A stretch of DNA of 45,852 nucleotides from Pseudomonadota bacterium (GTDB lineage: Bacteria > Pseudomonadota > Alphaproteobacteria > Micropepsales > Micropepsaceae): contig JAFECP010000005.1 in assembly GCA_018242105.1 (NCBI GenBank), forward strand, positions 19,869-65,720. Reading direction: 5' to 3'. The first letter of the stretch is position 1, and each line of letters starts with the position of its first letter. Of the stretch, positions 2,391 to 32,782 are shown piece by piece. The notes beneath the pieces were generated by a model. The model did no database searches, was not told the origin of the DNA, and worked only from the letters and a program-made list of their open reading frames with translations. A program made the translations under genes and the position numbers.

Positions 2391-2897
2391 ATGAAAGAGC
2401 CCGAAGCCCATGCCGGTAATGGCCCGGTCCCCCTCCACGCCCCCGCGGGCCAGGAGGATCAAACGCAGGATTTCACCGACAAGCATGTCGTCCCCGCGGT
2501 GGCGCGGCTGCACAGCGCATTGGCGTCGTGCGATGCGCTTATTTCACGCTACGTGAAACGCGCCACCGACTCTGAAAATTACAGCGCGGATGCGCAGGCC
2601 AAGTTCGCTCTTGTCGCTGCACGCCTCGCGGCGGCGCAAGGCCAAACGGCGGGCGCCATCGCGCGCCTCGCGGATGCGGAGAGCCGTCAGCGCGTCACCA
2701 ACATAAGGGTCGATGATTCTGTTTTCCGCCCGCGCCGCCGCACGGCGGCCGGCGTCAACCGCGCCCCACGAAATAACCCGTCGCACGGTAGCACCGGCAC
2801 AAGCGATTGGGAAAACGGCGAATCCGAAGACGAAAAAACGACATTCAATTCGTCTCCGAAAACGGCCTTCACCGGCCCACGCATCCGGCAAGTCTGA
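2391..2897 (+). CDS. Unknown SOS-associated cassette protein 1
   Basis: This is a 168-residue protein I cannot assign to a named domain. Residues ~25-105 are Ala-rich and predicted helical (VPAVARLHSALASCDALISRY, then AKFALVAARLAAAQGQTAGA). The C-terminal third is polar, rich in Arg, Ser and Asn, and probably disordered. I chose ATG 2391 because it lies 4 nt after the LexA box, at the predicted transcription start. An earlier in-frame ATG would sit inside the promoter. No Shine-Dalgarno is present, which fits a leaderless message. The stop TGA overlaps the next ATG by one base, so the two products are likely coupled. Base composition upstream is AT-richer than in neighbouring genes, suggesting acquired DNA. 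Confidence 0.6.
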   Translation: MKEPEAHAGNGPVPLHAPAGQEDQTQDFTDKHVVPAVARLHSALASCDALISRYVKRATDSENYSADAQAKFALVAARLAAAQGQTAGAIARLADAESRQRVTNIRVDDSVFRPRRRTAAGVNRAPRNNPSHGSTGTSDWENGESEDEKTTFNSSPKTAFTGPRIRQV

Positions 2898-3190
2898 TGG
2901 CCAGGCGCGGCGCTCCCCTCGGCAATCGCAACCGTGTCACCCACGGCTTGCGCACGCGCGAAATGAAAGAAATGCGCGCGATGGTGCGCGCCTGCATCGC
3001 GGAGATGAAACTGGCGGCCGGGCTGGTGAGAGCGGAAGCGGCAAAAGACTTTCTTCCCCCGCTTTGCGGGGGAAGTGCCGAACGCAGTGAGGCGAAGGGG
3101 GTGGCTGCGGCGGAGCAGGCAACGCACCATCACCGCCGCCCCTTCCACCGCTTCGCGGTCCCCCTCCCCCGTAAAACGGGGGAGGGAAAA
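2897..3190 (+). CDS. Cassette protein 2 (GAPLGNRN motif), stop lost to repeat
   Basis: The protein begins MARRGAPLGNRNRVTHGLRT and continues REMKEMRAMVRACIAEMK. The Gly-Asn-(Arg/Lys)-Asn...His-Gly motif is known from small basic alphaproteobacterial proteins and from DNA-associated phage-type proteins; its function is unknown to me. The start overlaps the upstream stop (TGATG). After about 50 residues a palindromic repeat begins at 3053 and is read in frame. No stop occurs there, and the frame stays open antisense to folC and into accD until 4798. The natural C-terminus has therefore apparently been replaced. The end given here is the end of the repeat region, not a stop codon. Confidence 0.45.
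3053..3186. repeat. Palindromic repeat element, copy 1
   Basis: The element is bounded by two hairpins: CTTCCCCC/GGGGGAAG at 3053-3075 and CCCTCCCCCG/CGGGGGAGGG at 3162-3186. An inner complementary pair (AAGGGGG near 3095, CCCCTT near 3140) lies between them. Shared core words with copies 2 and 3 include the GAACGCAGTGAGG-type box and CACCGCTTCGCGGTCCCCCTC. It sits between the cassette gene and the folC stop. In the cassette frame it reads GGSAERSEAKG ... HRFAVPLPR. This copy has a longer inner loop than copy 2. Confidence 0.85.
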
Positions 3191-31450: not shown

Positions 31451-31535
<85 letters not shown>

Positions 31536-31577: not shown

Positions 31578-31857
31578 CGCCCGCCCAAAAGAAAAGCCCC
31601 ATAGAATCCGCGCCGCTTTCGCGGGCGCGCCCCATGAGGCCTTTCGGTGCCCAGCTACGCAGCAAGCCCTAGGATGGCCGTCTTCCAGGCCAACCAGTGA
31701 GCGCCTTCGCTCCAACCTCCCCGGTTTGCATGCGGAAACCGGATCGAGCCATCGCCGGCCTGCCGATCTCCGCGCGGGGTGCCGCAAGCGCCCCCTTACC
31801 TGTCTGTCCCTGCGATCATCAGAGCTTCACGGCTGTTTATCTCCCGTCCATTACCCG
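31578..31857 (-). ncRNA. Candidate SOS-controlled non-coding transcript
   Basis: A LexA-boxed promoter at 31912-31861 points into this region, but no credible reading frame follows; the first ATG (31851) gives four residues. Several strong stems are present: GGGGTGC/GCGCCCC around 31778-31796, CCGGTTT/AAACCGG at 31722-31742, GAGCG/CGCTC around 31700, and CCGC-GAAA-GCGG near 31615-31628. A T-rich stretch (minus strand CTTTTCTTTT, near 31590) could end it. It does not match tmRNA, RNase P, SRP or 6S RNA as I know them. It could also be degraded DNA. Confidence 0.25.
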
Positions 31858-31860
31858 ATT

Positions 31861-31912
31861 GAACATATAGAGAACAGATAGGACTAATGCAAGCCTTATT
31901 AGGAAAAATTTT
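31861..31912 (-). promoter_or_regulatory. Orphan LexA-boxed promoter (paralogue of 2335-2386)
   Basis: Read on the minus strand, it has TTGCAT (31892-31887), a 17-bp spacer and TATATG (31869-31864). The LexA box GTTC-N7-GTTC overlaps the -10 (31875-31861). It aligns without gaps to 2335-2386 over 52 bp with 42 identities by my count. Similarity stops at the end of the box. It faces away from the toxin-antitoxin genes. Confidence 0.7.
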
Positions 31913-31983: not shown

Positions 31984-32262
31984 ATGGCCAGCCCGGTCCG
32001 CAAAGACGATGTGATTCAGATTCGCGCATCCGCCGAAACCAAGGCGATGCTGAACCGCGCGGCGGCGCTGCGCGGCCAAAAGCTGTCGGAGTTCATGCTG
32101 GACAGCGCGCGGCGTCAGGCGGAGGAAGCCATTCTCGATCAGCGCGTTTTCTTCCTGGACGAGAAGGCCCATGCCGCCTTCGTGGAAATGCTGGATGCGC
32201 CTGCCAAACCGAACAAAGCGCTGAAGGCGCTCATGACACGCAAGCCAGCGTGGCACCGCTGA
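31984..32262 (+). CDS. DUF1778 (TacA-like) antitoxin
   Basis: This 92-residue protein has a ribbon-helix-helix lead (VIQIRASAETKAMLNRAAAL) and the DUF1778 segment GQKLSEFMLDSARRQAEEAI. The C-terminal part ending FLDEKAHAAFVEMLDAP is the toxin-neutralising region of TacA-type antitoxins. Such proteins bind their own promoter with the toxin. ATG 31984 has GGAGGAG upstream and lies 10 nt before the toxin gene, the usual order. An operator-like repeat precedes it. Confidence 0.88.
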   Translation: MASPVRKDDVIQIRASAETKAMLNRAAALRGQKLSEFMLDSARRQAEEAILDQRVFFLDEKAHAAFVEMLDAPAKPNKALKALMTRKPAWHR

Positions 32263-32272
32263 CGCTCCCGGC

Positions 32273-32782
32273 ATGTCCACCGTCATTCTTCCGCCGGAAC
32301 GATTGACCGCGCGGCACGACACATCCGGATTTTCCAACGGAAAGCATCCTTTGCTGGATGCCTGGCTGAAAGAGCGGGCGCTGGAGAGCGAAGGCCTTTC
32401 CGCCCGCACCTATGTGATCTGCACCGCGCTTGCGCAGGTCGTCGGCTATTATGCGATTTCGACCGCGATGGAAGAACGGCATGCGCTGCCGACGGCGAGG
32501 CTCCGCCGCAACCTGCCCCATCAGGTGCCGCTTCTGCTGATCGGACGGCTGGCGCTGGACGTTTCCGTGCAGGGCCGCGGATTGGGGGCCGATCTTCTGG
32601 CCGACGCGGTGCGGCGCTGTTGCGCGGCATCCGAGATCGCCGGAGCGCGCGCGATCATCGCCCATGCGATCGACGATGAAGCGGCGCGCTTTTATCGGCA
32701 TCACGGCTTTGTCCCCTCGCCGCTGGGCGAGCACATCATGCTGCTGCCGATGGAAATGGCGAGGAAAGCGCTGACAGAGTAA
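32273..32782 (+). CDS. GNAT-family toxin (TacT-like acetyltransferase)
   Basis: This 169-residue GNAT protein has the acetyl-CoA loop LALDVSVQGRGLGADLLADA (V-x-x-Q-x-x-G-x-G). The ending AARFYRHHGFVPSP is typical of TacT and AtaT toxins, which acetylate the amino acid on charged tRNAs and stop translation. YYAISTAMEE and PHQVPLLLIGRLALD fit the same family. The partner DUF1778 antitoxin is 10 nt upstream. No Shine-Dalgarno is seen, suggesting low or coupled translation. The exact tRNA target cannot be read from sequence. Confidence 0.87.
   Translation: MSTVILPPERLTARHDTSGFSNGKHPLLDAWLKERALESEGLSARTYVICTALAQVVGYYAISTAMEERHALPTARLRRNLPHQVPLLLIGRLALDVSVQGRGLGADLLADAVRRCCAASEIAGARAIIAHAIDDEAARFYRHHGFVPSPLGEHIMLLPMEMARKALTE

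Follow-up and report, generated by a model that had tools for sequence, protein, structure and literature searches.

The window analysed here is a stretch of 45,852 nucleotides (nt) from contig JAFECP010000005.1 of an assembly of the Micropepsaceae (GCA_018242105.1); the genome measures 3.2 Mb and the window lies in contig 55. On the minus strand, positions 31912–31587 almost certainly hold a gene for a noncoding RNA (ncRNA) whose family is new and whose promoter is of the LexA type. As read from the sequence, the promoter comprises an A/T-rich, UP-element-like upstream tract AAAATTTTTCC (31902–31912), which recurs in the promoters of other copies of the RNA gene, a −35 element TTGCAT (31887–31892), conserved with the RNA paralogue C2, and, at a spacing of 17 nt, a −10 element TATATG (31864–31869) that lies within the LexA box GTTCTCTATATGTTC (31861–31875). 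The box, which is conserved in the orthologues, has the form GTTCN7GTTC, the published LexA motif of Alphaproteobacteria and Caulobacter (PMC6237742, PMC12700426), and the same type of box stands in this genome upstream of lexA (about 70 nt before the ATG), recA, mmcB and an HhH-GPD glycosylase gene. The predicted transcript of about 270 nt (31857–31587), with its start placed about 7 nt after the −10 element and its limits taken from the promoter and terminator positions, would carry a Shine-Dalgarno-like GGGAGA (31840–31845), conserved in orthologues and most close copies, a miniature open reading frame (mini-ORF) GTG-AAG-CTC-TGA (GTGAAGCTCTGA, 31819–31830), a conserved RNA core (31645–31814) and an intrinsic terminator, folded as a long GC hairpin followed by TTTTCTTTT (31587–31644), all on the minus strand. 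A convergent tRNA-Leu(CAG) gene (31451–31535, plus strand) is the neighbour.

The first-pass annotation had taken the 52-base-pair promoter for an orphan duplicate of the promoter of a LexA-boxed protein cassette elsewhere in the window. The duplication was described exactly: positions 31912 to 31861 of the minus strand and 2335–2386 of the plus strand, where the cassette promoter lies, share 42 of 52 identities without a gap. The A/T tract (AATTTTTCC), the −35 sequence (C)TTGCAT, the 17-nt spacer, TATATG and the LexA box are present at both loci, and downstream the similarity of these two loci does end at the box. Without the shared 15-nt box, 27 of 37 positions are still identical, a value reached in none of 200,000 shuffles. 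A general SOS promoter form, which would have made the match trivial, was rejected, as the 32 promoters of the genome with an AT-rich GTTCN7GTTC box showed a mean identity of only 10.5/37 over 496 pairs. Among these 32, the window promoter resembled only RNA-gene promoters (30/37 and 24/37) and that of the cassette; the nearest was the promoter of the C2 RNA paralogue (30/37), and the cassette promoter matched that of the C3 RNA gene at 25/37 positions. If anything, the cassette seems to carry an RNA-gene-type promoter, its promoter falling by these comparisons into the same group as those of the RNA genes, and a promoter type shared by the protein cassette and the RNA genes explains the match noticed in the first pass.

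The idea that a second LexA cassette lost its protein genes at this place and left its promoter behind draws on the 42/52 identity, but its probability is close to nil. The window promoter is nearer to C2 than to the cassette, nothing of the cassette coding sequence (2391–2950) follows the promoter at 31861–31912, no remnant of its genes was found, and the block from the LexA box to the terminator is conserved as RNA. The earlier statement that no reading frame follows is correct for proteins: the six copies of the RNA in this genome encode no conserved protein, and a protein-coding core (a 98-amino-acid (aa) frame at 31787–31491) was rejected because stops or indels break the frame in most paralogues. 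It overlooked, however, a conserved RNA gene that is invisible without the other copies. Nor is the promoter an orphan. In two other species the same RNA adjoins the same tRNA-Leu(CAG) gene, and the sequence from the LexA box to the terminator aligns closely in all three, whereas that immediately upstream of the promoter is unalignable; box and RNA have thus been kept together, and the promoter belongs to the ncRNA gene. The other explanation offered in the first pass, a promoter driving an RNA, gains support from the structured, intrinsically terminated RNA, its five paralogues and the orthologues at tRNA-Leu in other species.

Downstream of four other LexA boxes of the genome, GRACAGACAGGTAAGG and about 200 nt of related sequence were found at the same distance, and DNA searches recovered the last of the six copies, the one in the window included. 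In the alignment of the six, a core of 170–192 nt begins 56–61 nt after the start of the LexA box, and each copy ends with the intrinsic terminator GGGC[CT]TTTCTTTT, at the place that matches the terminator of the window copy. RNAalifold assigned 44 pairs to the six sequences, 13 of them with compensatory change. A first covariance model, made of the core alone with promoter and terminator left out, retrieved all six copies and many relatives; a further model, R2, was built on a hand-written consensus from 36 diverse members, whose elements were a 5′ pseudoknot, a long-range CAGG/CCUG helix and hairpins, with the pseudoknot pairs not included in the model. The window core matched with 170.6 bits (R1) and 138.4 bits (R2). 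Over 98 sequences aligned to R2, the structure was 84.4% paired in comparison to 29–47% in slid controls, and the pseudoknot helix, absent from R2, was paired at 94.7% with double changes at 6/6 pairs. In the window copy, the 5′ strand of this helix is CGCAGG (31809–31814, minus strand), pairing with CUUGCG (31788–31783, minus strand) in the loop of the next hairpin. The compensatory base changes exceeded the relatedness controls; judged by this covariation, the sequence after the promoter is a structured ncRNA.

Of 96 genomes of the order, 32 contained matches to model R2, about 131 in total, at most 8 per genome and all in Rhizomicrobium, those below approximately 30 bits not having been checked individually; no match was obtained among 385 genomes sampled from the class outside Rhizomicrobium. 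An exact search with a 25-base core motif in one genome each of 84,980 species hit only metagenome-assembled genomes (MAGs) labelled Rhizomicrobium or alpha/proteobacteria, most of them genomes already placed in Rhizomicrobium. The genome counts are lower bounds due to strict filters, and the E-values come from a short calibration; the family is nevertheless hardly in doubt, given bit scores of 100–200 for close and 40–100 for most distant members and given that promoters, mini-ORFs and terminators, none of them part of the model, provide independent signals. Comparison of close and distant members with Rfam 15, at gathering and relaxed thresholds and taking in 6S, tmRNA, RNase P, riboswitches, T-box and others, gave no family, the best score for the window RNA being 15.3 bits (E 1.7). 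A likeness to RNase P seen by eye (CCAGACAG, GGUGC..GCACC) was not supported by Rfam, and nothing relevant was found in the literature on Rhizomicrobium small RNAs (sRNAs). By these comparisons the family is new, no described RNA family matching it, although, taken most broadly, it is one more structured ncRNA of bacteria. We know of no RNA that combines a stress promoter, a start-stop mini-ORF, an abutting pseudoknot scaffold, a terminator and several paralogues per genome.

The succession of a leader ORF, a structured RNA and a terminator recalls the parts of an attenuator, and a role in cis, as the attenuator or riboswitch leader of a gene downstream, was considered. The surroundings largely refute it and leave it very little probability: the next gene in the window is the tRNA-Leu on the opposite strand, the downstream long ORF lies on the opposite strand in 59 of the 98 copies (on the same strand in 31), and no downstream gene recurs.

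Being multicopy, the RNA could also be a selfish or mobile element, capturing promoters as it spreads. Copies C3 and C36 share 98% identity over exactly the stretch between the start of the core and the end of the terminator, with unrelated promoters and leaders, and another copy (G037 C114) appears to be a chimera, made up of two paralogues. We consider such an element improbable: no protein gene is associated with the RNA, phages, plasmids and IMG/VR gave no match, synteny between species is seen at some loci, and gene conversion explains the mosaics. The C3/C36 mosaic and the likeness of the cassette promoter indicate that promoter, leader and core have been swapped among loci, for which gene conversion is the simplest route. 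The 5′ half of G037 C114 resembles one paralogue and its 3′ half another (compared with C21 and C119), indicating gene conversion between RNA genes.

Among the 95 copies with enough upstream sequence, a perfect GTTCN7GTTC precedes 46, where shuffles led us to expect 0.23 (maximum 3 in 1000). CTTGAA-N-CCCAT-type sites, which we take to be sigma-32/RpoH-like, were found in 15 of the 49 copies devoid of a LexA box (0.08 expected in shuffles). In one copy (G062 C63), GTTCCCCATTTGTTC is at once a LexA box and a −10 element of the sigma-32-like type. Judging from these promoters, the family is apparently a stress RNA that changed its trigger in the course of evolution. For the window, a gene for an ncRNA of about 270 nt under LexA repression is very probable on the evidence of its sequence.

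A further signal lies in the leader. In 80 leaders, made non-redundant at 70% identity, a Shine-Dalgarno sequence followed by a start codon, at most two further codons and a stop was found in 33, as against a mean of 1.1 and a maximum of 6 in 2000 shuffles. The mini-ORF of the window copy follows this pattern; other copies carry ATGCCGACCTAG, ATGAAGTAA, ATGTTCTAA or even ATGTAA. In 17 of the 33, the stop is at the identical place, 6 nt before the pseudoknot. This is also the distance in most close copies, whereas in the window copy the 5′ strand of the pseudoknot begins 4 nt after the stop. Recoding pseudoknots meet the ribosome at a spacing of 5–9 nt between the A-site codon and the pseudoknot, and the similar spacing found here led us to propose that the working RNA has a ribosome parked on its mini-ORF.

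In the proposed course of events, LexA would repress the standalone gene at 31912–31587, and its removal upon DNA damage would switch on the window gene and its five paralogues together, every transcript stopping at its own intrinsic terminator. The RNA would consist of three modules: a leader with a Shine-Dalgarno sequence and a three-codon ORF, a pseudoknotted multibranch scaffold whose 5′ strand comes just after the stop codon, and the terminator hairpin. A ribosome would initiate on the mini-ORF and terminate with the pseudoknot at its mRNA entry, so that the RNA would act ribosome-bound, as a stress-induced ribosome-parking or ribosome-targeting RNA. We infer the ribosome step as the most likely mechanism, to be held tentatively; a shade more tentative still is its extension to the whole genus, in which stress-induced RNAs of SOS or heat-shock type might hold the ribosome by a pseudoknot at the stop of an ORF of 1–3 codons.

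The same data bear on two other functions. A trans-acting antisense sRNA, in which the scaffold stabilises the molecule, unpaired or variable segments pair with mRNAs, and the mini-ORF is a by-product or tunes stability, would follow the mode of most bacterial stress-induced RNAs. There are many multicopy sRNAs whose arms have diverged, the variable arm (columns 53 to 152) differs strongly between the paralogues, and DinR sets a LexA-dependent precedent (PMC10907235). What is conserved, however, is a scaffold with a pseudoknot and a long-range helix instead of a short seed, and the mini-ORF occurs far above chance at a fixed spacing; an antisense role thus seems possible but rather unlikely. 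Less likely again is a dual-function mRNA for a micropeptide, with the RNA as its structured 3′ untranslated region and the short ORFs as reduced relics. Some copies do have a longer ORF, which follows the pattern ...GRPKVPIRR-stop and reaches right up to the core: distant copies show 13–17 codons ending in ...RGRPKVPIRR*, and several share the C-terminal GR-x-K-V-P-I-R-R-stop via different codons (e.g., GTGCTTGTGCGACGCTAA, GTTCCGATCCGAAGATGA). In this genome, in contrast, every LexA-type copy encodes three residues of unrelated sequence, and the RNA downstream is still conserved. As a separate observation, the leader peptides MFLSRRGRPRVLVRR and MPMTRGRPKGPI, from copies among G040C33, G060C41 and G063C3, contain RGRP, which resembles the core of an AT-hook, and could be DNA-binding micropeptides.

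Several results weigh against a ribosome-bound stress RNA or parts of this reading. In many distant copies the mini-ORF is absent or longer, and 34 of the 95 copies (about a third) lack both a LexA box and a strict sigma-32-like promoter. Generic scans neither called the window promoter, TTGCAT/TATATG being too weak for the threshold, nor found the long hairpin terminator at 31587–31644. Single-sequence folding energy was unremarkable (z −1.2 and −0.6); it is uninformative, and the structure therefore rests on covariation. Finally, no neighbour protein is conserved across the copies, syntenic orthologues excepted, so that no function is tied to the RNA by its neighbours.

Other features of the surroundings were recorded. 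A TacA-like antitoxin and GNAT acetyltransferase pair (31984–32779) is divergent from the RNA promoter in the window, and the upstream flanks of the orthologous RNA loci gave no alignment with it. A tRNA gene lies within about 1.5 kb of 12 of the 98 copies (Leu-CAG in four, Gly-CCC in two), where a rough estimate predicts about 4; three of the 12 are orthologues, and this suggestive association was not used. In four distant Rhizomicrobium genomes (G016C5, G029C8a, G065C2 and G066c), the RNA copy has one and the same gene as its convergent neighbour. By eye this gene resembles citrate synthase; a 76-aa fragment had no Pfam match. The shared neighbour suggests an old fixed locus. A second LexA-boxed multicopy element occurs at L027:1501-1760 (C15) and L053:1501-1760 (C16) of G000, with GTTCCTATTATGTTC and a −35 of TTGACA; a further ~220 nt is about 97% identical between the two loci and has no Rfam family. 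With relatives in G054 and G037 and shorter matches in G039, G058 and G060, it is possibly another SOS-controlled RNA. LexA-boxed small-protein genes without a Pfam family were found in the window (2391–2950) and in L017, L025, L047 and L055, some of the proteins having a GxxxGNxNxxxHG motif (window 2897–2950, L017), and the cassette would seem to have several counterparts in the genome.

Comparable systems share only parts of this arrangement. OLE, ROOL and GOLLD are large structured ncRNAs with a conserved elaborate scaffold and a standalone transcript, both of which are predicted here; unlike them, the window family is multicopy in one genus, has stress promoters and a mini-ORF, and gives no useful Rfam score. 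Recoding pseudoknots have a stop or sense codon a few nt upstream, and bar-type minigenes are start-stop ORFs of two to three codons. The short ORF with its stop a few nt before the pseudoknot resembles both, but the RNA is standalone and terminated, with no downstream ORF to read into. In Klebsiella pneumoniae, DinR is an sRNA induced by DNA damage via LexA that pairs with ftsZ (PMC10907235). The likeness lies in an RNA that is LexA-dependent and induced by DNA damage, LexA control being predicted from sequence in the present case; unlike DinR, the window RNA has its own LexA promoter, no parent mRNA, several copies and a pseudoknotted scaffold. In Caulobacter, nine mitomycin-induced sRNAs were found with no SOS box near any of them, ChvR being under ChvI (PMC6237742). 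They are likewise alphaproteobacterial sRNAs tied to DNA damage, whereas the window RNA has a conserved SOS box.

It seems to be very rare for a dedicated RNA to stand directly under LexA, and the DinR study notes the lack of other such RNAs (PMC10907235). Here at least six genes with an SOS box in a single genome are devoted to one RNA fold not described before, and relatives use a heat-shock-type promoter for the same fold. From the start-stop mini-ORF fixed beside a pseudoknot follows a clear and testable prediction on the part of ribosomes in the response to DNA damage; if it holds true, the family would provide a noncoding RNA route to sequester ribosomes, or to signal through them, during DNA damage.
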